Virus record (IMG/VR): IMGVR_UViG_3300031569_001093
Span: 1 to 42,188 of that record
Reading direction: 5' to 3' (one strand)
Origin: a virus
DNA: 42,188 nt
Below are positions 4,646 to 24,758 of this stretch, in pieces. Below the pieces are notes generated by a model. It did no database searches, was not told the origin of the DNA, and saw only the letters and a list, made by a program, of their open reading frames with translations. The translations under genes were made by a program, and so were the position numbers. Position 1 is the stretch's first letter, and every line of letters starts with the position of its first letter.

Positions 4646-4849
4646 ATGAGTGATTCTATAAGTAAGTACTATGAACAACAAGAAGAGCTGCAAATAACTA
4701 ACCGCAGATCAGCAATCCGAAAAGAATTATCAGCTATTAGAAAAGAAGCTGGTTTAATTGGGGATCCAAACCTTTCAGATCTTGAATGGTTTTTAACTAA
4801 CAGAGAAAAGATAACAAAAAATCGTAAGATTATTGATCTTATTGGATAA
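4646..4849 (+). CDS. small hypothetical protein
   Basis: 67 residues, mostly charged helix (SAIRKELSAIRKEAGLIGD), ending KIIDLIG. It is transcribed from its own two-box promoter immediately upstream. No family recognised. Confidence 0.6.
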   Translation: MSDSISKYYEQQEELQITNRRSAIRKELSAIRKEAGLIGDPNLSDLEWFLTNREKITKNRKIIDLIG

Positions 4850-4857
4850 TAGTGAAA

Positions 4858-4930
4858 GTTATTAACAATTTCTAAAATAATTATGAAATTCCTGTAAATT
4901 CTCCCGAAAGTATGTAATTATATTAATATA
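4858..4930 (+). promoter_or_regulatory. promoter-like repeated block, copy 1
   Basis: A 23-bp element at 4858-4880, GTTATTAAC..TTTCTAAAATAA, matches 5338-5360 at 19 of 23 positions. It is followed by AT-rich sequence (AATTATATTAATATAACA) before the gene at 4954. Three adjacent small transcription units start after related blocks, suggesting an early or middle promoter class. Confidence 0.4.
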
Positions 4931-4953
4931 ACAATATATCAATATAACATACT

Positions 4954-5142
4954 ATGAACAAAATTAAAACTCCATTAAAAGAACTTATACAAGAATTAGA
5001 ATCCGAGCTGTGTCATAAAAATACACGAGAAGGATTAAAATATGCAATTGCCATAGCAAAGAGCATGCTCAAAAAAGAAAAAGAAATAATGTGCTGGTTT
5101 GCAGATGAATGGCATGAAATGAAAATAAATAAAAATTTTTAA
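4954..5142 (+). CDS. small hypothetical protein
   Basis: 62 residues: a helical N-terminus (LKELIQELESELCHK), a second helix with IAIAKSMLKKEKEI, then CWFADEWHEMK. It is an isolated short unit between two promoter-like blocks, as seen for early phage genes that modify host functions. No function can be read from the sequence. Confidence 0.6.
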   Translation: MNKIKTPLKELIQELESELCHKNTREGLKYAIAIAKSMLKKEKEIMCWFADEWHEMKINKNF

Positions 5143-5146
5143 AAAA

Positions 5147-5193
5147 AACAAGAAATCTTGGTACGAATCCCAATTAAATTGATTATATTTATA
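5147..5193 (+). promoter_or_regulatory. promoter-like repeated block, copy 2
   Basis: AACAAGAA at 5147-5154, then 22 bp, then AATTGATTATATTTATA at 5177-5193. The same two parts with a 21-bp gap occur at 5359-5404, and GAATCnCA is shared between them. TATATTTA could act as the -7 element of a Bacteroidetes-type promoter. Confidence 0.5.
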
Positions 5194-5216
5194 ATATAAT
5201 TAAAAAACTAAAAACC

Positions 5217-5333
5217 ATGAATAGTACACAACTAATAATGATCGCAAACAAACTGTATCCAAATAAATCTGTATTTAATCTTACTAAAACCGAAAGAGAA
5301 AAGGTTATGGATATCTATTATGACTATAATTAA
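5217..5333 (+). CDS. 38-residue hypothetical protein
   Basis: ATG at 5217, TAA at 5331-5333. The product starts MNSTQLIMIANKLYPNKSVF and ends VMDIYYDYN. It follows a promoter-like block by 23 bases and ends 4 bases before the next block, so it forms its own short unit. Its coding status rests on this position and a clean frame. Confidence 0.5.
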   Translation: MNSTQLIMIANKLYPNKSVFNLTKTEREKVMDIYYDYN

Positions 5334-5337
5334 AATT

Positions 5338-5404
5338 GTTAATAACTTTTTCTAAATTAACAAGAATTTATGGCCGGAATCGCATAGAATTGATTATATT
5401 TATA
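5338..5404 (+). promoter_or_regulatory. promoter-like repeated block, copy 3
   Basis: This copy combines both shared parts: GTTAATAAC..TTTCTAAATTAA (5338-5360, like copy 1) and AACAAGAA-N21-AATTGATTATATTTATA (5359-5404, like copy 2). It precedes the sigma factor gene at 5436. Confidence 0.5.
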
Positions 5405-5435
5405 TATTAATAATAAAACAAAAAACGGAAACTAT

Positions 5436-6002
5436 ATGAACACATTACTTTACAAAGACATTGCAAAAAACATTAATTCAGCTGATCCTGTATTATCTAA
5501 TATGAGATTAGTTGTACATCTTGCTAAAAAATATCAAGGTATGGGATTACAACTAGAAGATCTAATCCATGAAGGTACAATCGGATTATGTAGAGCAAGA
5601 GATAAATTTGATTCTACAAAAGGTGCTAAATTTTCTACATACGCTGCTCAATGGATTAAGGCTACAATCCGACAAGCATTAAATAATAAGAGTAGAACAA
5701 TTAGAGTACCTGCTCATAAAACCCATATCCCTGATATAGGTCCTAAAGTATCTGAATTGGATCCAACATATCAAGGTACTTATGAATCTCATATTGAACA
5801 ATCCCACGAAGAATCTCACCTTAAGCATAAGATAGAAAACTTAATAGGTAAACTTAAACCAAGACAACAAGAAATTATTAAAATGAAATTTGGTATCGAT
5901 TGTAATGAAATGAAAACTATTGAAATTGCAAAGCAATTAAATATTACTGTTCAATCTGTAAATGGAACTATTCGTAATGCAATTAAAATTATGAAAGGTT
6001 AA
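5436..6002 (+). CDS. sigma-70 family RNA polymerase sigma factor
   Basis: 188 residues. Region 2 is very clear ([19 protein letters not shown], then [18 protein letters not shown] with the RTIRVPAH signature that follows region 2.4 in RpoD-like factors). The C-terminus carries region 4 with a helix-turn-helix ([15 protein letters not shown], then [19 protein letters not shown]). Region 1 is missing and region 3 is reduced to a short linker, so it is a minimal primary-like sigma. It would bind host RNA polymerase core and direct it to phage promoters. It is distinct from the gp55-like late sigma at 33945. Its own upstream region is a repeated promoter-like block, suggesting early or middle expression. 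Confidence 0.9.
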
Positions 6003-6519: not shown

Positions 6520-7350
6520 ATGCCAGAATTAGCAGAACTTAGATTAACAGCAGATTATATAAATGAATGTAGCCACGGTGAAGGTCCTATGATTCATTAT
6601 ACAAAAATTGAAAAAAACCCTGCTCACAAAGGAACTCATTGTATTACACCTGAGAGCCCTAAGGGTTATTTCGGTTTATCTGCAGAGAGTAGAGGAAAAG
6701 AATTAATATTATACATTAAAGAAGGTGGCAAAACTACTCCTCTTAGAATGTCAATGGGTATGAGCGGTCATTTTAAATTAACAAATACTGGCCAAGAACC
6801 AAAGCATGCTCATTTAAAATTTTATAGAAAGGATGGAACTACATTATCATTTGTTGATGTAAGGAGATTTGGTAAATGGAAAGCTGGTGAAACATGGAGC
6901 ACAAACCGTGGCCCAGATCCTACTACTGAAGCTGATGAGTTTAAATATAACATATTAAAGAATTTAGATAAAAGAGTATTTGATCAACCTATTCATTTAG
7001 TATTAATGAATCAAAAATATTTTAATGGTATTGGTAATTATCTTAGAGCTGAGATCTTATATAGGCTACCTGAAGTAAATCCTTTTATGGATGCTAGAGA
7101 AGTTATAGACAATTGCCCAAAGGTATTAGAATTATGTACAACTATACCAAGAAAAGCTTATTCATTAGGTGGAGGACAATTAAAGGATTGGGAAAATCCG
7201 TGGCAATCAGATAAAGAAAAGTTTGAAAGATTCATTAAATGTTATAACAATAAAAACATGGGGCATATCATGGATAAGAACGGAAGAAGGTTTTGGTTTG
7301 ATCCTAAATGGAACATTAAAATGTTAGAACATATCTCTAAACAAAAATAA
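6520..7350 (+). CDS. Fpg/Nei-family DNA glycosylase/AP lyase (NEIL1-like)
   Basis: 276 residues. The N-terminus MPELAEL supplies the catalytic Pro2 and Glu3. Lys60 in SRGKELILYI matches the conserved beta-hairpin Lys. MSGHFKL and DVRRFGKW are core motifs, and the H2TH domain is at about 157-188 (MNQKYFNGIGNYLRAEIL). The C-terminal finger (238-266) has one Cys and reads DKNGRRFWFDPKW, like the zincless finger of NEIL1 (HGRTIWFQGDPG), not the Cys4 zinc finger of bacterial Fpg. The enzyme would remove oxidised bases and nick the strand. It lies with dUTPase and DNA polymerase genes, which suits genome maintenance during replication. Confidence 0.88.
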   Translation: MPELAELRLTADYINECSHGEGPMIHYTKIEKNPAHKGTHCITPESPKGYFGLSAESRGKELILYIKEGGKTTPLRMSMGMSGHFKLTNTGQEPKHAHLKFYRKDGTTLSFVDVRRFGKWKAGETWSTNRGPDPTTEADEFKYNILKNLDKRVFDQPIHLVLMNQKYFNGIGNYLRAEILYRLPEVNPFMDAREVIDNCPKVLELCTTIPRKAYSLGGGQLKDWENPWQSDKEKFERFIKCYNNKNMGHIMDKNGRRFWFDPKWNIKMLEHISKQK

Positions 7351-7394: not shown

Positions 7395-7889
7395 ATGGCA
7401 AACACTGACAATAAATGTAAGGATCTTACTATAAAAGATTACTATGAAGAAAAAGGCTATGATGTAAATGCATGTTCATTGCGTGATCTTTATCGACTTC
7501 AGGAAAATACACAAAATATGTATTTTGAAAAACAAGGAAAGAAACCTTTTAAAGATTTTAACATTGGAGATCTAATTGATTTCTTAATGGTTAATAATCA
7601 TGCAATCATTGATGAGTTACATGAAATGGTAGATGCAGTTGGAGGAATCGAAGATGGTGCAGGTAATGCTGCATGGAAACCTTGGAAATCTAAAAATCCC
7701 GAAATCAGAAAACAAAAATTATCAGATTTAACACCTGGTGATTTAAAAGAATTAAAAATGGAATGGGTTGACGTAATGCATTTTGTATTTAATGCAGGAT
7801 TAGCAATCGGAGTAACCTCTGATGAATTTTATAATTACTACCTTTCAAAGAATGAAGAAAACTGGGATCGACAAAAAAACAATTATTAA
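7395..7889 (+). CDS. all-alpha dUTPase/MazG-type NTP pyrophosphatase
   Basis: 164 residues. Metal-binding motifs of the all-alpha NTP pyrophosphatase fold are visible: NHAIIDELHEMVDA (Glu74, Glu77), then WKPWKS, then MEWVDVMHF (Glu123, Asp126). The tail YYLSKNEENWDRQKNNY fits the Y-x-x-KN-x-x-N-x-x-RQ pattern of dimeric dUTPases. It would hydrolyse dUTP (and possibly dCTP, as T4 gp56 does) to the monophosphate and PPi, keeping uracil out of DNA and feeding thymidylate synthesis. It lies just upstream of DNA polymerase. Substrate cannot be decided from sequence. Confidence 0.8.
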   Translation: MANTDNKCKDLTIKDYYEEKGYDVNACSLRDLYRLQENTQNMYFEKQGKKPFKDFNIGDLIDFLMVNNHAIIDELHEMVDAVGGIEDGAGNAAWKPWKSKNPEIRKQKLSDLTPGDLKELKMEWVDVMHFVFNAGLAIGVTSDEFYNYYLSKNEENWDRQKNNY

Positions 7890-7913: not shown

Positions 7914-9329
7914 ATGCTATTAGACATTACACAAGAGGACAGAGAATTATGGGTATCTTATTTTAATCTTGACGGAAAGACTAGATTTAAAACTTATGAT
8001 CTTCAAACCGAAGATATGTTTAACTGGGAAGTTTGTGATAGTAGAGATACTAAAGCAGATCCTAAAATTAAAAACTGGGATGGCCGTCCTGTTAAAAAAG
8101 TAAGGTCTAGATATTTAAATAAATATAGGGTATTGGAGTATATGGAGCAACTATCATTCTCTGATAGAGAACTAATATTCGGTTATCATTTTCCAAGAAC
8201 ATTTTTTGTAGATATTGAAGTTGAGGTAACTGATTCATTTCCTGAACCAAGTAAGGCACCAAACCCAGTAACTGCAATCTGTATAGTAACACCAGAAAAA
8301 CAATGTATAGTTTTAGCTACAAAGGACTTAGATAAACAAACACAAGCTAAAATACAAAAACAAATTGATGAGCATTTTAAATCAATAGGCGAAGAATTTT
8401 CTTTTATCTTTAAATGTTTTAAGAATGAATATGATATGTTATATACTTTCTTAGATACTTTTGTTAAGAAATTCTCAATGATGACTGGTTGGAATTACAT
8501 TCAATTTGATTGGCAGTATATTGTAAATCGTTGTAAAAAGTTAGGTATTGATCCTTCTATATCATCTCCTATTGGTAGAACTTTTGGAAAACATGAATTT
8601 CCATGCCATGTAGGTGTAATGGATTATTTAGATATTTATGCAAAATGGGATAGGACTGTTGATATTAAAGAAGATTTAAAATTAGATACAGTAGGTGAAG
8701 CAGTTGTAGGAATTCGCAAAATTAAGTATGAAGGTACTATACAAGATATGTTTGTAAAGGATTATCCTAAATACATTTTTTATAATGCAGTAGATACAGC
8801 ATTAGTATATTTAATTCATGAAAAAATTAAAACAATGGAAATTGCTTTAACAATAGCTCATATGACTGAAATAAGTATATTTAAAGCCGCATCACCAGTT
8901 GCAATTACAGAAGCTTTATTAGCTAAAGAATTTTTAACTAGAGATTTAGTAATGGCAAAAGATCCAAACGCCAGGCCTGCAAAGCGTGAAGGTTTTGAAG
9001 GAGCTTTTGTAAAAGAACCAAAAACAGGAATGCATAATGCTGTAGCTGCATTTGATTTTGCTTCTCTATATCCTTCTATTATGAGACAGTTAAACGTATC
9101 ACCAGAAAGTTTTATTAAAAAGGTAAAACCTGAGAATAGAGAAAAAGAAGTAGGTGATGATAGGATCGTATCTGTTACTGGTGCTGTTTATAGTACTGAG
9201 AGATCAATACTAAAAGATGTATTAAGTAGATTATATAGTCAAAGAAAAGAATACAAGAAAGAATCATTTAGGTTACAACAAAAAGCATATGATTTAGAGC
9301 AGGTGTTAAAAAAACAAGACAATGATTAA
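7914..9329 (+). CDS. 43: DNA polymerase gp43, N-terminal half (exonuclease and palm motif A)
   Basis: 471 residues of a T4-type family B polymerase. All three 3'-5' exonuclease motifs are intact: Exo I FFVDIEVEV (Asp100, Glu102), Exo II GWNYIQFDW (192-200), Exo III YNAVDTAL (290-297). Polymerase motif A is at 381-388 (DFASLYPS). The protein ends in a charged fingers helix (SRLYSQRKEYKKESFRLQQK) at a normal stop. Motifs B and C are absent here and lie in the gene at 23634. Together the two halves make 845 residues, close to the 898 of T4 gp43, so this is a split rather than truncated enzyme. A strong terminator follows. The halves must associate to copy DNA. Confidence 0.93.
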   Translation: MLLDITQEDRELWVSYFNLDGKTRFKTYDLQTEDMFNWEVCDSRDTKADPKIKNWDGRPVKKVRSRYLNKYRVLEYMEQLSFSDRELIFGYHFPRTFFVDIEVEVTDSFPEPSKAPNPVTAICIVTPEKQCIVLATKDLDKQTQAKIQKQIDEHFKSIGEEFSFIFKCFKNEYDMLYTFLDTFVKKFSMMTGWNYIQFDWQYIVNRCKKLGIDPSISSPIGRTFGKHEFPCHVGVMDYLDIYAKWDRTVDIKEDLKLDTVGEAVVGIRKIKYEGTIQDMFVKDYPKYIFYNAVDTALVYLIHEKIKTMEIALTIAHMTEISIFKAASPVAITEALLAKEFLTRDLVMAKDPNARPAKREGFEGAFVKEPKTGMHNAVAAFDFASLYPSIMRQLNVSPESFIKKVKPENREKEVGDDRIVSVTGAVYSTERSILKDVLSRLYSQRKEYKKESFRLQQKAYDLEQVLKKQDND

Positions 9330-12227: not shown

Positions 12228-12974
12228 ATGGAAAATTATACATATATACTCGGTCCTTGTAGTATTGAAAACGAGGATAACTTTTTAGAGGTAGCCAAAA
12301 CGTTAGATGGTTATATGGGAGGCAAAGATTGGTACTTAAAAGGTTCTTTTGATAAAGCTAATAGAACTTCTATACATTCTGATAGAGGCCCAGGTTTAGA
12401 TGAAGGTATTAGAATTATGCAAAGTATTAAAGAAGCTTATCCTAATGTTAAAATTGTAACTGATATCCATGAACCTAACCAAGCACTACCCCTTTCTGAT
12501 GTAGTTGATGTTATTCAAATACCAGCATTCTTATGTAGACAAACAGATCTTTTAATTGCCTGCGCAAAAAACTTTAATATAATTAACATTAAGAAAGGCC
12601 AATGGTTATCTGCAGATGCAATGAAACATGCAGTTGCAAAGATTAAAGAGGTTGATCCTAATTGTGAAGTATGGGTAACTGAAAGAGGTTCTAATTTTGG
12701 TTATGATAGATTAATTGTAGATTTTAGAGGTGTAGATGTAATGAAAGAATTTGCAGACAAAGTTATTTTAGATTGTACTCACTCAACTCAAATGGCTGGA
12801 GAAGGTATAACTGGAGGAAGTCGTAAGTTAGCAAAACAATATGCACAAGCAGCTAAGATATTTGAATATGATGGAGTATTTATTGAAACTCACCCTGATC
12901 CTGATAATGCTATTTCTGATTCTGCTAGTCAAGTAGAATTAGATTGGTTAGTGTCTCAAATAAATAATATATGA
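12228..12974 (+). CDS. kdsA: 3-deoxy-8-phosphooctulonate (KDO-8-P) synthase
   Basis: 248 residues. Diagnostic KdsA motifs: KGSFDKANRTS (38-48), RGPGLDEG, TDIHEP, VIQIPAFLCRQTDLL, and TERGSNFGYD. The family condenses phosphoenolpyruvate with arabinose-5-phosphate to KDO-8-phosphate, a precursor of lipopolysaccharide inner core. Cys11 in LGPCSIEN is the metal-ligand position of the metal-dependent class (Asn in the E. coli type). No kdsB, kdsC or kdsD homologue lies in the window, so host enzymes or genes elsewhere would be needed. The 3' end overlaps the next gene by ATGA. Related 3-deoxy sugar synthases using another aldose cannot be excluded. Confidence 0.9.
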   Translation: MENYTYILGPCSIENEDNFLEVAKTLDGYMGGKDWYLKGSFDKANRTSIHSDRGPGLDEGIRIMQSIKEAYPNVKIVTDIHEPNQALPLSDVVDVIQIPAFLCRQTDLLIACAKNFNIINIKKGQWLSADAMKHAVAKIKEVDPNCEVWVTERGSNFGYDRLIVDFRGVDVMKEFADKVILDCTHSTQMAGEGITGGSRKLAKQYAQAAKIFEYDGVFIETHPDPDNAISDSASQVELDWLVSQINNI

Positions 12975-16921: not shown

Positions 16922-16958
16922 TTAAAACATTTGTTAATTATACCATATAATAATAAAT
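16922..16958 (+). promoter_or_regulatory. two-box phage promoter of the second sugar operon
   Basis: TTAAAAC at 16922-16928, a 17-bp spacer, then TATAATAATAAAT at 16946-16958. The whole element is nearly the same as the one at 4603-4639, including CTTAAAACATTT. It drives the six-gene run 16970-22484. Confidence 0.7.
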
Positions 16959-16969
16959 CAGTTATTTAT

Positions 16970-17521
16970 ATGGAAAAATGTTTAATGTTAGACTTTGATG
17001 ATACTCTAGTTAAAACTATTGAGATTCATGCCGATTCCTGGAGAAAGGCATTAGAAAAAGTTTTAAATATAGAAATACCTTTATCAGCTATTCTGGCTGA
17101 TATTAATTATGGGATGGATGTTTTATTAGAAAAATATCAATTAACTCCTAAGGAAAGTAAATTAGCACAAAAGTATAAAAAAGAAATATTTTCTAAAAGC
17201 TTACATAAAACTAAAGTAAATGAATTACTTTTATATATGTGTAAGAGTAAAGTATTTAAAAATTTAGTAATAGCATCAAATTCATCTAGAGAAAATGTAG
17301 ATAGAATTATGAGTTATCACCAGATAGAACCTTCTTTATTTGATTACATATATACTAGAGAAGATGTATCAAATAAAAAACCGTCACCAGATATGGGACA
17401 TTTAATAATGGAAAAGTTTCCACAATATAATTTTGAAGACTTCCTAATGGTTGGGGATTCTGATGTGGATTTAACTTTTGCACGTAAACTTGGAATAAAA
17501 TGCATAATAGTAAAATTTTAA
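16970..17521 (+). CDS. HAD-superfamily phosphatase/phosphomutase
   Basis: 183 residues from ATG 16970. An upstream in-frame ATG at 16931 would overlap the promoter and add a non-conserved leader. Motif I is LDFDDTLVK (Asp8, Asp10), motif II ASNSS, the motif III Lys lies in NKKPSPD and motif IV is VGDSDVD. A helical cap between motifs I and II places it with phosphoglycolate phosphatase/beta-phosphoglucomutase-type enzymes. It overlaps the kinase gene by 22 bases. In this operon it probably removes or moves a phosphate on the sugar or alcohol activated by the next two enzymes. The substrate is unknown. Confidence 0.85.
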   Translation: MEKCLMLDFDDTLVKTIEIHADSWRKALEKVLNIEIPLSAILADINYGMDVLLEKYQLTPKESKLAQKYKKEIFSKSLHKTKVNELLLYMCKSKVFKNLVIASNSSRENVDRIMSYHQIEPSLFDYIYTREDVSNKKPSPDMGHLIMEKFPQYNFEDFLMVGDSDVDLTFARKLGIKCIIVKF

Positions 17522-18246
17522 TAGGGAATAGCGGAGATAAGGTATTTCTCCAAGGTAATAAAGTTATAAAGGAAGCAGGACATTATCCAGAAAAATTCAA
17601 ACAACAAATGGATTTTTTAATGTGCACAGAGCATCCTAATTTTATTGACATTAAACCATTATCAGAAACGAGTTATGAAATGAAAAGGTATGCTACTTGG
17701 TATGATAAAATTTTAGCGCAACCTTTAAATACTTCATTAGGTCAATTAGAAAGTTTAATTTCTATAATAGGTAAATTTGATAATGTAGGATCAGATGTAA
17801 AGACTCAAGATTATTTTGAAAAATTACAATTAAGAACAGGATATAATTATGAAGGTAAGTTTGATGCAACATCTGCATGGGGATTTGTTCATGGAGATTT
17901 AACAGTAAGTAATATTCTACATGATAAAGACTTCTTATTTATAGATCCAAGAGGAACTGAAGAACAGAACTACTATGATTATGGTAAATTAATGCAATCT
18001 TTTGTTATGGAATATGAGTCCCATATATACAATAACCCTAGTAAAAAATATAGTAGCTTTTGTAAAGGCGCAGAACAAATAATGTATGAATGGTGTGATG
18101 AATATCAATTAAAGTTCTTTTTAGCCGTTCACTTATTAGGCGCAGTACCTTTCTTTGAATTAAATGAAAGATATGAATTAGCAGGTTCTTTCCTTAAAAA
18201 AGGTCATGAATTATTTGATGAATTAGAAATAAAGTATAGTAAATGA
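17500..18246 (+). CDS. APH/choline-kinase-like phosphotransferase
   Basis: 248 residues. The N-terminal lobe has a nucleotide-loop-like segment (IGNSGDKVFL). The catalytic loop is VHGDLTVSNIL (130-140) and the metal-binding Asp lies in FIDPRG (Asp149), as in aminoglycoside phosphotransferases and choline/ethanolamine or sugar kinases. Between a HAD phosphatase and a nucleotidyltransferase it most likely phosphorylates a small metabolite for activation, as LicA does before LicC. Antibiotic resistance is unlikely from context. It overlaps both neighbours (22 bases; ATGA). Confidence 0.78.
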   Translation: MHNSKILIGNSGDKVFLQGNKVIKEAGHYPEKFKQQMDFLMCTEHPNFIDIKPLSETSYEMKRYATWYDKILAQPLNTSLGQLESLISIIGKFDNVGSDVKTQDYFEKLQLRTGYNYEGKFDATSAWGFVHGDLTVSNILHDKDFLFIDPRGTEEQNYYDYGKLMQSFVMEYESHIYNNPSKKYSSFCKGAEQIMYEWCDEYQLKFFLAVHLLGAVPFFELNERYELAGSFLKKGHELFDELEIKYSK

Positions 18247-18947
18247 AAAGAGTAACAAAGGCAATAATTTTAGCAGCAGGCAGATCAACTCGATACGGCA
18301 AAAATAAATTAGTTGATCCTATCTTAGGAAAGTCAACAGTTGAATACTGTATTGAATTTTGTATTGAAAACGGAATAGAGGATTGTTATGTAACAATCAG
18401 TAAAGCAGACTTCTTCTTTAAAGATAGTGTAAAACTTTCTCATCCTATTATTGAAGTATTAAATAAGTATAAAAAAGAAATTAATATATTTTATGAATTT
18501 CAAAAGGATGATGAATACGGACCAGGTGCTGCAATAAAAGTATGGGCAGGTAAATTTAATGAAGGTTTCTTATGTCTATTTGGTGATAATTATTATCAAG
18601 GAAATATAGGATTAGAATATCATGATCCAAATAGTACAGTAGTTACTTATAAAGATTATGATACAAGAGCTAGGAATTTACAATTAGCTTCTATATTAGA
18701 AAATGTTGTTATTGAAAAACCACATGGAATTGTATCAGGTAGATATTTCTGTGGTTATATGATATTTTCAAAAGAAGCATTTGATAATCTTGACAGTATT
18801 AAAATGTCAAATAGAAATGAATATGAAATTACCCATCTTATTAATTCAATGGATAATTTAAAATTTGAGGAATTAAATATATGTTGGTATGATCTAACAT
18901 ACGAAAATGATAAAGCAGTAATAGAAGATTTAATTAAAACGTGTTAA
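18243..18947 (+). CDS. sugar-1-phosphate/phosphocholine-type nucleotidyltransferase
   Basis: 234 residues. The N-terminal signature AIILAAGRSTRYGKNK and the later FGDNYYQGN are those of the NTP_transferase fold (RmlA, GlmU, LicC). It would couple a phosphorylated sugar, polyol or choline to a nucleotide, releasing PPi. It lacks the KdsB pattern (IPARYASTRLPGK), so it is probably not the CMP-KDO synthetase partner of kdsA. It overlaps the kinase stop by ATGA and abuts the next gene with no gap. Confidence 0.82.
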   Translation: MKRVTKAIILAAGRSTRYGKNKLVDPILGKSTVEYCIEFCIENGIEDCYVTISKADFFFKDSVKLSHPIIEVLNKYKKEINIFYEFQKDDEYGPGAAIKVWAGKFNEGFLCLFGDNYYQGNIGLEYHDPNSTVVTYKDYDTRARNLQLASILENVVIEKPHGIVSGRYFCGYMIFSKEAFDNLDSIKMSNRNEYEITHLINSMDNLKFEELNICWYDLTYENDKAVIEDLIKTC

Positions 18948-20192
18948 ATGAAAAATGTTAAAAGAGTAGGTTTCTTTAAACTTGGTAAAGCGATTAAGTT
19001 TAATGAAAATAGTTGGGGAGCAATCGGTGGAGATTGTGAACCTAAGCAACTGATAAATTCAATTGCAAAAAGAAATCCTAATATTGAATATTGGATATTA
19101 AGTCCAAATGATTTAGGTAGAGTTAGAGCAAAGGAAAAACCAGCAGTTCAATCATTATTTGGAGATCCTGTTGTAGCAGAGTTAGCAGCAGAACCAAATA
19201 TTCATGAGTTTCATTCTAAAATGGAGAACAGAAAATCTGCTGATGAAACTGTAAAATTTATAAAAGAATTAGATTTAGATTTTATTTTCTTTTATACTGG
19301 ACCATCAAGTACAGTTAACATACCTAATTATATTAACAAGAAAGATGGCAATGGTCAAGTTAAATCATTAGACTTTTTTAAATATTATGCGGCTCCGATA
19401 ATTCAAGCGATGAATGAGTTGGAAAAGAAAGTACCGATTGTTGGTTTGCTTGTAGATAACCGATATGTATTAGCCTGTAAAGATTGGGGTATTAATAATA
19501 GGCCTACATATTACTTAGCTCAAAATAATTTTACAAAAGAAGAACAATATTTTTATCAACCACCATTAAGGGATGTTAAAACTATTACATCTACTTATGA
19601 ATATTCAGGAATTGAAACTGTCTTTCTTTTAGATAAGACTAGATATAACACCGATGAATTGTTTGAAATGAAAAAGACAAACTCATTTATGATGTTACAA
19701 AATCAAGGAAAAGGTACAGGCGGAATGGACCGATGGGATCCTGTTAAAGATTATATTGTAGAGAATGATATAAAGACTGATATTTATGGTAAGTGGGATG
19801 ATGAATTAAAAGAAAAATATCCAGATTGGTTTAAAGGAGAAAAAAGAATTGAATCAATGACAGATGAATTACTTTCTACTAAGTATACCTTCTGTGTACC
19901 TATTAAAGAAGGAATGGTAACCTCTAAGTATGCTGAAATGCTACACTATGGTATTATACCATTCTTACATCCATCTTACGATACTGAATTTAATGTCTTC
20001 CCTGATGGTCATTTCATTAGATGCAAATCTCCAGAAGATTTAAAAAAGAAAGTAGAGTTTTTAAATGCAAACCCAGATCATTATAAAAAGCTCTTTTATA
20101 ATCTCCAAGAAAAATACTTAAAAGATTCCTATTATACTGGAGAACATGTAGATAATAAAATCTGGGAAGCTTATAACAAAATAACAAAATAA
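18948..20192 (+). CDS. GT-B glycosyltransferase, T4 beta-glucosyltransferase-like layout
   Basis: 414 residues, two Rossmann-like halves. In the C-terminal half: a strand and nucleotide-binding loop (SFMMLQNQGKGTGG), a helix, then DIYGKWDDEL, TKYTFCVPIKEGMVTSKYAE and MLHYGIIPFLHPSYDTEFN. This is the donor-site region of GT-B enzymes, with Glu330 at the usual donor-binding Glu. The N-half segment VPIVGLLVDNRYVLA parallels YYLFTDIRLPF of T4 beta-glucosyltransferase, and the order of elements matches, but identity by eye is low. Acceptor may be a glycan, protein or modified DNA base. It follows the nucleotidyltransferase directly and precedes an epimerase and a C5-methyltransferase. Confidence 0.7.
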   Translation: MKNVKRVGFFKLGKAIKFNENSWGAIGGDCEPKQLINSIAKRNPNIEYWILSPNDLGRVRAKEKPAVQSLFGDPVVAELAAEPNIHEFHSKMENRKSADETVKFIKELDLDFIFFYTGPSSTVNIPNYINKKDGNGQVKSLDFFKYYAAPIIQAMNELEKKVPIVGLLVDNRYVLACKDWGINNRPTYYLAQNNFTKEEQYFYQPPLRDVKTITSTYEYSGIETVFLLDKTRYNTDELFEMKKTNSFMMLQNQGKGTGGMDRWDPVKDYIVENDIKTDIYGKWDDELKEKYPDWFKGEKRIESMTDELLSTKYTFCVPIKEGMVTSKYAEMLHYGIIPFLHPSYDTEFNVFPDGHFIRCKSPEDLKKKVEFLNANPDHYKKLFYNLQEKYLKDSYYTGEHVDNKIWEAYNKITK

Positions 20193-20196
20193 AAAT

Positions 20197-21219
20197 ATGT
20201 ATAATTCAGAAACAAAAATCCTAGTAACAGGCGGTGCCGGCTTTATTGGTACAAATTTTATTAATGATTTATTAAATAGGGGCCATAACCCAGACTGTAT
20301 TGCAGTTGTTGATAATATGTCTAATGGTACTTATATACCTAAAGTCCATGATAAAATTAAAAATTTTAATAAAGTAGATATTAGAAATCAATATGTTGAA
20401 ACTGTAATCGAAAAATTTGCACCTGATTATGTATATCATTTTGCAGGGTGGGTTTCTATATATGATTGCAACGCAGATCCTTATGAAGCAGTAGATAACA
20501 ATATCTTAGGAAGTATTAATGTAATGAACGGTTGTGTTAAAGCAAATGTAAAAAGAATTATTTTTAGTGAAACTTCAGCAGTATATGAAAATTGTAAAAT
20601 GGGTGATGAAGGTTATAATGAAACACAATCAGATCCTACTACAATTTATTCTACAACAAAGGCATGTCTTGCTTTATTAGCAGAATCATACCAAAGAACT
20701 AAAGGTTTAAATTATACTGCACTTAGATATTTTAATGTAGCAGGACCTTTGCAAGATTATCATAGAACAGTACCTCCAGTATTTGCTGGATTTATACTAA
20801 GAATAATGGGTGGTCATAATCCTATAGTGTTTGGTGATTATAAAAAATCAAGAGATTATATTAATGTTGCTGATGTTAATGCATTCCATATTCTCTGTAT
20901 GGAAAATAAAGATACTGCAAATCAAACATTTAATTTAGGAACAGGTAAAATGACAAACTTATTAGATCTTAAAAACTTAATTGCTGATGAAATGGATGTA
21001 AGCGGTATACCGTTTGATCATTATGATGCAATTGCAGGCGAAGCTGTATATTCTTTTGGAGATGTATCTAAAGCAAAATCTATGGGATGGGATCCTAAGA
21101 AAGATATTGTTGATACGATAAAAGAAACTATTGACTATTTAAAAAATGAAGTTAAAGAAGGCACCATTAATCCATTAACATTTATGGAAGATTTAGAAAT
21201 TGAAAAAGTAAAAATATGA
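20197..21219 (+). CDS. GalE-like NAD-dependent nucleotide-sugar epimerase/dehydratase
   Basis: 340 residues, an extended short-chain dehydrogenase. The Rossmann motif is TGGAGFIGTN (11-20), the catalytic Tyr151 and Lys155 lie in YSTTKAC with SETSAVYE upstream, and RYFNVAGP, SRDYINVADV and FNLGTGK are typical of GalE/WbpP-like enzymes. It would interconvert C4 epimers of a UDP-sugar, or act on the sugar activated by the preceding nucleotidyltransferase. Its ATG lies 4 bases after the GT-B stop and its end overlaps the methyltransferase gene by ATGA, so all three are translated together. Confidence 0.85.
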   Translation: MYNSETKILVTGGAGFIGTNFINDLLNRGHNPDCIAVVDNMSNGTYIPKVHDKIKNFNKVDIRNQYVETVIEKFAPDYVYHFAGWVSIYDCNADPYEAVDNNILGSINVMNGCVKANVKRIIFSETSAVYENCKMGDEGYNETQSDPTTIYSTTKACLALLAESYQRTKGLNYTALRYFNVAGPLQDYHRTVPPVFAGFILRIMGGHNPIVFGDYKKSRDYINVADVNAFHILCMENKDTANQTFNLGTGKMTNLLDLKNLIADEMDVSGIPFDHYDAIAGEAVYSFGDVSKAKSMGWDPKKDIVDTIKETIDYLKNEVKEGTINPLTFMEDLEIEKVKI

Positions 21220-22484
21220 ACAAAGAAAAAGAATTAAAGTGGGGTACTATGATTCCGTTAATCGGAGGTAGTGCAATAGGTTGCAATAAAGCAACAGGTA
21301 ATTTACCAGCATTTCATTTAAGCTATGAAGCTTTTGCTGCTAATGAAAGCCATATAGAAGATTATTGGCCAGATGTACCTATGTATAGAATAGATCACGA
21401 AGAATTAGATATTCCTAATCAAACATTCGAACAGGTAGATTTTGTAAATTCTGTTTGTCCTTGTGCAGGTTTATCGCAGTTAAATTCTGCTAGTGGTAGC
21501 GCCTCATCTAGAGGATCTGATGCGGTCCAAAATCAATGGATGTATAATTCAGCAGAGTATGTTTTGGAGAATGTTAAACCTAAAGTCTTATGGGGTGAAA
21601 ATGCACCAGGTCTTTTTACTAAAATGGGGCAAGGTGTTGTTGATAATCTTAAAGCTATCGGTGAAAAATATGGATATAGCTTTTCATTAATTAAAACTAA
21701 TACTGAACTACATGGAATACCACAAAGAAGAATAAGAACATTTTATTTCTTTTGGAATACACCAACAGTACCTTTATTAGGATGGAAGTTTAGAGAAAAG
21801 AAACATCTTATAGATTATCTTAAAGAAGTACCAGAAGATGCAACACTACAAGATATGTTTATGGTTGAAGGTAAAGTAACTGATCATTATAAACCTTATG
21901 AATTTGTATTGGAAAAGGAAGGTTTAAATCATGCTGATTTTGCTAAGAAATTTGGTAAAGGTACGATTGCTCAATATTTAGAAAAGAATGATCTTTTAGA
22001 TGAGTGTATTAATTGGTTAGATAAAAAATATCATAAACAAGGATTCTCTAATAAAAAATCAACAAAATCATTTGGTGATATGCTAGAACACCAGAAATAT
22101 AAAACAAGCCAAGGCTTAGGTTATTGGGATGCTTCACCGCATTTCTTTAATGAAAGCTTTTCTGCTCTTATTGGTAGAAATATGTTTAATGGTGTACACC
22201 CAACAGAAAACAGATATCTAAACATTAGAGAAATGTTACACTTAATGGGATTACCATTAGACTTTGGAATTAAAGATGCTAGGCAAGTTAATCATATTGC
22301 TCAAAATGTACCAGCAACAACTGCAATGGATATGGCAGTAGAAGTTAAAAAATTCTGTGAAGGTAAAGCTAAAATGACAAACTTTACTTTTATGAAGCAG
22401 GATAATACAAGTCAGAAAATCTTAGTAACGGAAGAGCTAGGTGCAATACCTAAAAAGAAGTATAAAGTTAAGAGTACTTTTTAA
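21216..22484 (+). CDS. C5-cytosine DNA methyltransferase
   Basis: 422 residues. Motif IV is NSVCPCAGLSQLN with catalytic Cys83 after Pro82. Motif VI is WGENAPGLF (126-134), motif VIII is HGIPQRRIRTF (166-176), motif IX NRYLNIREMLHLMGLP, and motif X IAQNVPATTAMDMA. Motif I is divergent (MIPLIGGSAIGC instead of DLFAGxGG). A variable target-recognition region lies at about 180-320. It methylates, or otherwise substitutes, cytosine C5 in DNA. No restriction endonuclease is nearby, so it is an orphan enzyme that may protect phage DNA. Its position as last gene of a sugar operon is unusual. Confidence 0.88.
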   Translation: MNKEKELKWGTMIPLIGGSAIGCNKATGNLPAFHLSYEAFAANESHIEDYWPDVPMYRIDHEELDIPNQTFEQVDFVNSVCPCAGLSQLNSASGSASSRGSDAVQNQWMYNSAEYVLENVKPKVLWGENAPGLFTKMGQGVVDNLKAIGEKYGYSFSLIKTNTELHGIPQRRIRTFYFFWNTPTVPLLGWKFREKKHLIDYLKEVPEDATLQDMFMVEGKVTDHYKPYEFVLEKEGLNHADFAKKFGKGTIAQYLEKNDLLDECINWLDKKYHKQGFSNKKSTKSFGDMLEHQKYKTSQGLGYWDASPHFFNESFSALIGRNMFNGVHPTENRYLNIREMLHLMGLPLDFGIKDARQVNHIAQNVPATTAMDMAVEVKKFCEGKAKMTNFTFMKQDNTSQKILVTEELGAIPKKKYKVKSTF

Positions 22485-22531: not shown

Positions 22532-23281
22532 ATGGAAGCAACTATTAAAAAAATTGACGGTTACGAATTAAGTACATTCGTCAAAAAACTTTTACCGATT
22601 GATAAATTCATTTTTATGAAAATTGGAAAGGAAGGAACCGTTTCATCTGTATACTTCCCAGAAAGGGACGCAGTGAAACTAGTATCAACACCAACATCAG
22701 ATATCTTTGATACTGACATTACTGATCCAGTAAAAGTTAGTTTTTATAATGGTACTAAAGTGATTGATGCATTAGCTCATTTTAATGGAGATGTACAAGG
22801 TAAAATTAAATACTCTGAGATTGATGGAGAATTAATGGCAAGTGATTTTACTTTAGAAAATGAAGATCTTCAAATTAACTTAGCATGTGCAGATCCATCT
22901 TTATCTTTTATGGAAATGAGTAAAGAAGAAACCGATCGTGCATTTAGTGTTGACGGAAGTATATTTCAATTTGATCTTTTAACAACTCATGTAGATAAAA
23001 TGAAATCTCTATTTAATTTAGAAAGAGAAGAAGATACATTTACATTAACAGTAACAGATAAAGGAATTGCCGTGCAAGGACTTTCATATGATGCAACATT
23101 ATCGCATTCGTATGAAGGTGAAAATGCAATAGACCAAAAGGTAGTAATTTACAAAAAATATATTAACCTTTTAGATAAAGAAAACTATAAAGTGGTAGTT
23201 TGTAATAATAAAGTTGTATTTAGATCTTTAGATACCAACACTCACTTAACTGTCGCAGTTGCGATTACTGACGAGGATTAA
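22532..23281 (+). CDS. 45: DNA polymerase sliding clamp
   Basis: 249 residues, similar in size to T4 gp45 (228). It has the two-domain, strand-rich clamp pattern: an N-terminal domain beginning IKKIDGYELSTFVKKLL, an inter-domain region near FEMSK/FSVDGSIFQFDLL, and a C-terminal domain with DTFTLTVTDKGIAVQGLSYD and TNTHLTVAVAITDED. A trimeric ring would tether the split gp43 and, by analogy to T4, could also activate late transcription through gp55. It has its own promoter and a strong terminator, so it is a monocistronic unit. The assignment rests on fold pattern and position before polymerase, UvsX and gp41. Confidence 0.8.
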   Translation: MEATIKKIDGYELSTFVKKLLPIDKFIFMKIGKEGTVSSVYFPERDAVKLVSTPTSDIFDTDITDPVKVSFYNGTKVIDALAHFNGDVQGKIKYSEIDGELMASDFTLENEDLQINLACADPSLSFMEMSKEETDRAFSVDGSIFQFDLLTTHVDKMKSLFNLEREEDTFTLTVTDKGIAVQGLSYDATLSHSYEGENAIDQKVVIYKKYINLLDKENYKVVVCNNKVVFRSLDTNTHLTVAVAITDED

Positions 23282-23633: not shown

Positions 23634-24758
23634 ATGACAGAAACTACTGAGTTACAACAAATTAATAAAGAGGCTAGTAAATTTTATAATTATGAACAGG
23701 CCGTTAAGTTAATGCTTAATTCTATATACGGTGCATTTGGTAATCCTTACTTTTATTTCTTTAATATAGACATTGCAGAAACAATAACTTTACAAGGTAA
23801 AGATGCTATTCTTTATACCGAGGAATTATTAAATAGATATTTTAGATTGTATTGGCATAAAGATATTGCTGCTCATAAAGAAATGGGTATTACTGTTACC
23901 GGTAAAATTGAAAATCCAGTAGGTATTTATATTGATACAGATTCAGTTTATGTTAAGTTTGATGAAGTCATTGCAAAATCAGAAGGTTTTGATGGCGATG
24001 ATAAGGAATTTATTTTAAAGTTATATAAGTGTAGAGTAAATGGTTATTTAGAAAAAATTCTCCAAAGATATGCTGATGATAATAATTCAGAAAACTTTTT
24101 ATCTTTTGAATTAGAAAGTATTGCTAAAAATGCAATATGGTTAGCAAAGAAAAAGTACATGCAAAATATTGTATGGAAAGATCCAGATATTCATTATGAA
24201 GATTTATCCAAAATTAGTTCTAAAGGGTTTGAAATTATTCAATCTTCAACTCCAATATTTGCTAGAGAAAAACTAAAAGATTTATTAACATACATTTTTT
24301 CTGTGGAAAAATTAGATATGAAAGCTTTTGCTGCATTATTAAAAGATATTAAAAGGCAATTTAAATTAGCTAATGTAGACCAAATCTGTTTTTCTAGAAA
24401 AGTAAATAATTATCAAAAATATATTGTTAATGATTATGAAGCTTTTGAATTTGGATCAAGATGTCCAATTGGTGTAAGGTCCGCAGGTTATCATAATTAT
24501 TTATTAAACAACTCTTCATCTAAAGGCAAGTATCAACCTTTAGGAAATGGTGAAAAATGTAAAATGTACTTTTCTAAAGATAAATCTTGTGATGTCTTTG
24601 CATTCGCACCAGGTGATTATCCTTATGAGTTTGCACCAGAAATTGATCATGATAGACAATTTGAAAAAACAATACTAGATCCAATTAATCGTGTTGTTAC
24701 AGCAATGGGATTTAAAGCATTTAATAGAAATCTTATTTATACCACGAGTTTATTTTAA
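23634..24758 (+). CDS. 43: DNA polymerase gp43, C-terminal half (motifs B and C, thumb)
   Basis: 374 residues. Motif B is KLMLNSIYGAFGN (25-37) and motif C is YIDTDSVY (Asp101, Asp103), completing the catalytic site whose motif A lies in the gene at 7914. The K-[KQ]-x-x-I-x-K..SSTP thumb region is present as IIQSSTPIFAREKLKDLL. The C-terminus ends YTTSLF, a possible clamp-binding tail like the end of T4 gp43. The N-terminal 20 residues (LQQINKEASKFYNYEQ) form the second fingers helix, so the split falls in the loop between the fingers helices. It sits between gp45 and UvsX, near the position of gene 43 in T4. Confidence 0.93.
   Translation: MTETTELQQINKEASKFYNYEQAVKLMLNSIYGAFGNPYFYFFNIDIAETITLQGKDAILYTEELLNRYFRLYWHKDIAAHKEMGITVTGKIENPVGIYIDTDSVYVKFDEVIAKSEGFDGDDKEFILKLYKCRVNGYLEKILQRYADDNNSENFLSFELESIAKNAIWLAKKKYMQNIVWKDPDIHYEDLSKISSKGFEIIQSSTPIFAREKLKDLLTYIFSVEKLDMKAFAALLKDIKRQFKLANVDQICFSRKVNNYQKYIVNDYEAFEFGSRCPIGVRSAGYHNYLLNNSSSKGKYQPLGNGEKCKMYFSKDKSCDVFAFAPGDYPYEFAPEIDHDRQFEKTILDPINRVVTAMGFKAFNRNLIYTTSLF

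Follow-up and report, generated by a model that had tools for sequence, protein, structure and literature searches.

The 42,188-nucleotide IMG/VR virus record IMGVR_UViG_3300031569_001093 (here, the window) carries a block of six genes that very probably encodes a cytosine hypermodification pathway, the glycosylation of 5-hydroxymethylcytosine (hmC), in a T4-like phage; our confidence does not extend to the reaction of the last gene product. In order, the block encodes a HAD enzyme, a sugar kinase, a sugar-1-phosphate nucleotidyltransferase (NTase), a GT-B glycosyltransferase (GT), a GalE-like epimerase, and a protein with the fold of C5-cytosine methyltransferases (MTase). The initial annotation, made from the sequence of the window, had proposed DNA hypermodification for the GT, epimerase, and MTase, which form the distal half of the block. 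That proposal is now strongly supported, because the same phage encodes a predicted deoxycytidine monophosphate (dCMP) hydroxymethylase, because the GT model best matches the structure of T4 β-glucosyltransferase (BGT), because the cassette is conserved in many phages, and because polymerase-like C-terminal tails are present on the relevant proteins of relatives.

A second record, the 181,663-bp contig 3300031519_006853, is 100% identical to window positions 18907-42188 (23.3 kb); the same phage, which is T4-like and ~200 kb in size, is therefore known over about 200 kb. Along with a canonical ThyA, the contig carries a divergent thymidylate synthase (TS)-family gene at contig positions 49158-50042 (~68064-68948 in window numbering). 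In phmmer searches, its product matched CMP hydroxymethylase MilA (2e-25) and T4 gp42 (5e-24) above the best thymidylate synthase (3e-13). Asp179 of T4 gp42 is the residue that selects dCMP; an Asp is aligned at this position and is kept in 32 of 32 distinct homologues. We predict that the gene encodes a gp42-type dCMP hydroxymethylase; a thymidylate-kinase-like deoxynucleoside monophosphate (dNMP) kinase gene adjoins it. The initial annotation saw no hydroxymethylase, regarded the chemical handle for the sugar as missing from view, and suggested searching the rest of the genome. Its first statement holds for the 42 kb of the window but not for the phage: the search of the 181-kb contig found the gp42-type gene, so the handle is accounted for elsewhere in the same genome. 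The hydroxymethylase gene lies 49 to 58 kb downstream of the GT in seven records, including this phage; five sampled records with no hydroxymethylase match end 45 to 53 kb downstream of the GT.

This finding bears on the order of reactions favored earlier, in which the MTase would make 5-methylcytosine (5mC) in DNA, a TET-type enzyme would oxidize it, and glycosylation would follow. The MTase and GT genes are close together and coupled, and comparable TET cassettes are known from metaviromes. However, Tet_JBP had no match in the window, the 181-kb contig, or 14 other records, in a search whose control gave no clear positive over the cutoff, and the handle would be provided at the nucleotide level by the hydroxymethylase. 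We consider the 5mC-first order highly improbable. If the dCMP hydroxymethylase makes the handle, then the MTase is not its source.

Sequence searches did not place the GT in a family. Pfam yielded only subthreshold matches (Glyco_trans_1_2, 0.0012; GT10, 0.026), the BGT family in Pfam or PHROGs did not match it up to an E value of 1, and a PDB sequence search with a GT profile returned only noise, with a fucosyltransferase as the best plausible match (0.29). Its AlphaFold model, built from an alignment of 28 phage sequences (pLDDT 83, pTM 0.84), was compared with 350,542 PDB chains using Foldseek: ranks 1 to 4 were all T4 BGT (best E value, 3.1e-10), and T4 α-glucosyltransferase (AGT) was also among the matches. 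In a viral structure library, a protein named DNA β-glucosyltransferase ranked second. Structural placement with polysaccharide transferases, which the initial annotation would have counted against its proposal, was thus the opposite of what we found. The motif parallel with BGT that it had drawn by eye was recovered by hhalign, which paired both regions, albeit in a weak alignment: VPIVGLLVDNRYV...NRPTYYL of the GT falls onto KIYYLFTDIRLPF...NRPWAYL of BGT, equating Asp170 with BGT Asp100, TSKYAEM falls onto TLRVWET, and Glu330 is paired with BGT Glu272 (E value of 1.6e-4 in a single comparison, weak when taken alone). GT residues Asp170 and Arg172 are invariant across the 28 homologues. Judged by its model, the GT is nearest to BGT in fold, yet it is no member of the BGT sequence family; we regard it as a candidate hmC-DNA glycosyltransferase.

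The six genes form a translationally coupled block. The GT, epimerase, and MTase are coupled open reading frames (ORFs), as the initial annotation reported, and all three start with ATG. The NTase stop codon abuts the GT start, 4 bp separate the GT and epimerase genes, and the epimerase and MTase genes overlap at ATGA. The block extends further upstream than was recognized, through the HAD, kinase, and NTase genes, all of whose junctions overlap or abut. Translation of the HAD gene more likely begins at the ATG at 16970 than at the TTG at 16931. No restriction gene was seen beside the MTase, although no systematic search for one was made.

This block is intact in about 35 close relatives (57 to 99% identity) wherever the contig covers it. 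About 40 diverged contigs, whose GT is ~32% identical, have the genes in the order hydroxymethylase, NTase-kinase fusion, small HAD, GT, and MTase; the hydroxymethylase is present in all 19 diverged loci that have ≥6.5 kb of sequence upstream of the MTase, not all of which are independent lineages. Cyanophage S-TIM61 (L003), with an MTase and "ThyA" only, is not a clear exception, since the gene annotated as ThyA (4763-5599) has an Asp at the dCMP-selecting position (RSNDMATGVPLD) and may encode a dCMP hydroxymethylase or methylase. Overall, dozens of phages, with identities as low as ~30%, have cassettes that combine a hydroxymethylase and sugar activation with GT and MTase. Among cultured phages, Pseudoalteromonas phage XG4 encodes hydroxymethylase, HAD, NTase-kinase, GT, a second GT, MTase, and dCTPase; Enterococcus phage Planchet lacks the MTase but encodes hydroxymethylase, HAD, NTase-kinase, and this GT; and Bacillus phage G encodes kinase, HAD, NTase, MTase, and a GT that is annotated as alpha-glucosyl transferase, and has another TS-family gene at a distance of about 13 kb. 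In another phage group, the MTase is paired with a true AGT (PF11440, 2.6e-30). A scan of genome contigs found only 11 MTase relatives, all in contigs of metagenome-assembled genomes with the same neighbors, which look phage derived. No account of this cassette turned up in the body of literature searched, an absence that is not proof. Directly before the MTase in L170:9175-9999, L167, and L181 lies a UDP-glucose-dehydrogenase-like gene (family judged by eye), which suggests a uronic-acid-type sugar in those cassettes.

In the pathway we propose, a gp56-like dCTPase would hydrolyze dCTP, the gp42-type enzyme encoded elsewhere in the same genome would hydroxymethylate the resulting dCMP, and the adjoining dNMP kinase would phosphorylate the product, so that replication would incorporate hmC into DNA. 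A parallel branch, formed by the kinase, the NTase, and the HAD enzyme, would activate a sugar to its nucleoside diphosphate (NDP) form, which the GalE-like enzyme would epimerize and the BGT-fold GT would transfer onto hmC in DNA. Alongside the GT, the MTase would also act on DNA, with cytosines of newly made DNA as its target.

The sugar genes of the block could instead be part of an island, like those for lipopolysaccharide or capsule and of a kind frequent in marine phages, that modifies the host surface or virion proteins, with the MTase a separate orphan antirestriction gene that is a neighbor by chance. Directly upstream, the window does encode KdsA, a PseB/FlaA1-like dehydratase, a NeuD-like acetyltransferase, a LegC-like aminotransferase, and a GT2 protein. 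These upstream surface-sugar genes are, however, variable among close relatives, several of which lack the dehydratase/acetyltransferase/aminotransferase group while keeping the block; moreover, the GT is nearest to BGT, the cassette recurs together with the dCMP hydroxymethylase, and relatives bear polymerase-like tails. We consider a surface-glycan function very unlikely, and the comparison of close relatives led us to reject it as the main function of the block, although the upstream pglF-degT group may itself serve a surface glycan. KdsA, together with a KdsD/arabinose-5-phosphate isomerase-like gene and the KdsB-like gene beside it on the contig (the pair spans 69045-70417, L077:12045-13417), makes up an apparent near-complete route to CMP-3-deoxy-D-manno-octulosonate in one phage. 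Nothing links these Kds-type genes to the DNA cassette.

C-terminal tails provide a separate indication of which cassette enzymes act on DNA. In diverged relatives, tails such as TLEDFFA or LQLDAFMV end 35 of 35 distinct MTase C termini and 20 of 23 GTs. They are found in none of 58 sugar and nucleotide enzymes (hydroxymethylase, 0/21; NTase-kinase, 0/18; HAD, 0/19) and in 8 of 418 other ORFs, namely, 2 DNA polymerases and 6 AGTs; shuffled tails matched in 13 of 16,440 cases. In five relatives, the DNA polymerase, either full length or as its C-terminal part, has the same type of end (e.g., TLEDFFG and SLESFFM), and the ends of T4 and RB69 gp43 are comparable (SLDFLFG and SLFDMFDF). The L156-L160 group instead has xLF at the end of all three proteins, polymerase, GT, and MTase. 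T4 AGT binds the sliding clamp, gp45 (PMC13216743). Because the GT and MTase tails resemble those of the phage DNA polymerase, both enzymes are implied to work at the replication fork, and we infer that they are tethered to the clamp while modifying DNA. Two tandem MTase copies, both with xLF tails, lie beside an AGT-like GT and an NTase-kinase at L154:9968-12410. Several close relatives, though not the window, have a 330- to 336-amino-acid ORF right after the MTase (L141:11254-12264, L147:11274-12269, L008, L009, L022, and L025); it matches neither Pfam nor PHROGs, but its DDD stretch gives it the look of a GT-A enzyme. Its C terminus is TSLF, KSLF, KSVF, or KSIF, resembling the polymerase tail of those relatives, TTSLF.

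The MTase model (pLDDT 89) finds its best structural matches among DNA C5-methyltransferases. Catalytic motifs IV (PC), VI (EN), VIII (QxRxR), and X (QN) are invariant in 39 of 39 homologues, including the catalytic residues Cys83, Glu128, Arg172, and Arg174. The divergence of motif I, remarked on in the initial annotation, is real and uniform: PLIGG replaces the usual FxGxG for S-adenosylmethionine (SAM) in all 39. The adenine-stacking Phe is changed to Ile, and the usual ribose-binding acid is acidic in only 30 of 39, while another acid, at position 44, is present in 39 of 39. The cofactor site is thus retained in altered form and has not just degenerated.

Since C5 is already occupied in hmC, ordinary methylation by the MTase would need residual cytosine, and its most likely role, which we put forward tentatively, is to methylate, in the ordinary way at C5, those cytosines that had not been hydroxymethylated. 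Next most likely is chemistry on hmC itself or with another cofactor, which we regard as a serious but doubtful possibility. In a specific version that we think somewhat unlikely, the protein does not methylate cytosine but attacks C6 of hmC in DNA with its Cys, activating the exocyclic CH2OH so that a group is added, exchanged, or removed there using the reshaped former SAM pocket. The constant pairing of the MTase with a hydroxymethylase and with two kinds of DNA glycosyltransferase favors this version, as does the invariance of the four catalytic residues while motif I is uniformly PLIGG and the ribose-binding acid varies. Ordinary C5-methyltransferases can act on hmC in vitro without SAM. 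Against it, the protein shares its fold and its motif X Asn with SAM-dependent C5-methyltransferases. Rather unlikely, in our judgment, is the full extension of this idea: a new kind of DNA-modifying enzyme that applies a covalent C6-cysteine mechanism to hmC in DNA at the fork, with a reshaped cofactor pocket, as the obligatory partner of an hmC glycosyltransferase in a large group of mostly uncultured phages.

A further alternative is that the MTase is a CmoX-type carboxymethyltransferase that makes 5-carboxymethylcytosine, a demonstrated handle in phage DNA (PMC12783734). CmoX (8yf3) is indeed among both the sequence and the structure matches of the MTase. However, the Arg that defines CmoX (R350) corresponds to Asn364 in 39 of 39 homologues, the SPPC motif is absent, and CmoA was not found in 10 cassette-bearing phages, whereas the positive control, S-B43, gave CmoA. 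On the defining residue and the absence of CmoA we reject this route, to which we assign a negligible likelihood.

Several points weigh against the hmC glycosylation pathway as proposed. In this lineage, the hydroxymethylase gene is ~49 kb from the cassette. The GT has only ~12% identity to BGT and lies outside its Pfam family. The window GT has no polymerase-like tail and the window MTase has only KSTF, compared with TTSLF on the polymerase, so that tail evidence within the window itself is thin; the XG4 GT and MTase both lack a tail as well. No gene of the window could be recognized as that of the sliding clamp. Complete replacement of cytosine by hmC would leave a C5-methyltransferase with no substrate, which the methylation role favored above leaves unexplained. 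Finally, we observed gene content, homology, predicted folds, conserved linkage, and tails directly, and deduce from them every reaction, the sugar, and the acceptor.

Around the block, the window has ribonucleotide reductase genes, UvsX, and a family-B DNA polymerase that is split in two (Table 1). Between the polymerase parts (the first at 7914-9329) lie 14 kb that hold nrdAB, the sugar genes, and the modification block; relatives G002, G004, G017, and G018 share the split, while G013, G014, G028, and G029 have an intact enzyme of ~845 amino acids. Adjoining the C-terminal part, where a sliding clamp might be expected, is a gene for a conserved 249-amino-acid protein (22532-23281); its assignment as gp45, assumed from position, was not confirmed, as it matches no family and aligns with gp45 just locally and very weakly. 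Both the window (6520-7350) and phage G (gp292, L190:17120-17965) have a gene for a DNA glycosylase of Fpg/Nei type near the cassette, with a possible link to modified DNA. The PHROG matched by the kinase, phrog_21938, also matches the C-terminal half of NTase-kinase fusions.

Table 1. Features of the six-gene block and related genes (window coordinates unless stated)
Feature	Coordinates	Strand	Basis
HAD phosphatase or phosphomutase	16931-17521	+	PF13419 4.3e-25
APH/LicA-like sugar kinase	17500-18246	+	HGD..N and IDPRG motifs; PF01636 weak (0.023); phrog_21938 1.3e-10
Sugar-1-phosphate NTase (donor activation)	18243-18947	+	PF12804 1.2e-6, above cutoff; TIGR03992 1.1e-17, below cutoff
GT-B glycosyltransferase, BGT-like fold, 414 aa, ATG start; candidate hmC-DNA glycosyltransferase	18948-20192	+	AlphaFold model, PDB matches, invariant residues
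GalE-like NDP-sugar epimerase/dehydratase (short-chain dehydrogenase/reductase), 340 aa, ATG start	20197-21219	+	PF01370 2.7e-46; TIGR01179 galE 1.1e-40, below its cutoff
C5-cytosine-MTase-fold protein, 422 aa, ATG start	21216-22484	+	PF00145 3e-18, above cutoff; structure matches; residue conservation
gp56-like dCTPase/dUTPase	7395-7889	+	phmmer with T4 gp56 2.5e-21; phrog_173 9.3e-17
KdsA	12228-12974		
Split family-B DNA polymerase, C-terminal part, ends TTSLF	23634-24758	+	phrog_262 4.2e-61; tails
KdsD/arabinose-5-phosphate isomerase-like gene	contig 69045-69710		beside KdsB-like gene

With this analysis, hmC glycosylation of the T4 type is extended to a cassette that is widespread, is predicted to make its own sugar donor, and in nearly all cases includes a partner with the C5-methyltransferase fold. 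In canonical hmC chemistry there is no task for such a partner, which poses a sharp biochemical question for which XG4 and Bacillus phage G are cultured models. The polymerase-like tails offer a simple sequence criterion separating DNA-acting from precursor-acting enzymes of the cassette. DNA modified in this way would be expected to resist many restriction and CRISPR nucleases.

The closest known system is hmC glucosylation in T4 (gp42, gp56, and BGT/AGT), with which the window phage appears to share a gp42-type hydroxymethylase with the dCMP-selecting Asp, a gp56-like dCTPase, and a GT of BGT fold; T4 also keeps b-gt and gene 42 in the same kind of replisome region. Unlike T4, the window phage has its own kinase, NTase, and epimerase for the donor sugar and a GT outside the BGT sequence family, and the cassette has a constant C5-MTase partner that T4 lacks. 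The arabinosylation cluster of RB69 has HAD and NTase-kinase proteins in common with XG4 and Planchet, and both it and the pentose cluster of Shewanella phage Thanatos have NTase-kinase and HAD homologues with a TS-family hydroxymethylase-like gene nearby (PMC6024577, PMC12838424). They differ in having another GT, and the RB69 stretch examined has no C5-MTase; the window encodes kinase and NTase separately and adds an epimerase, and the U32 route of RB69 (ORF050), considered as a candidate, has no homologue in the 181-kb contig. The likeness is one of module homology. Like the carboxymethylcytosine system of phage S-B43, this cassette places a phage C5-MTase homologue among DNA hypermodification genes; it differs in its lack of a detected CmoA, in having no amide ligase seen beside the MTase, and in having Asn for the carboxylate-binding Arg. 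Finally, phage TET/5mC hypermodification cassettes also bring C5-MTase and GT together, whereas here no TET was found (with the weak control described above) and hmC would be made at the level of dCMP.

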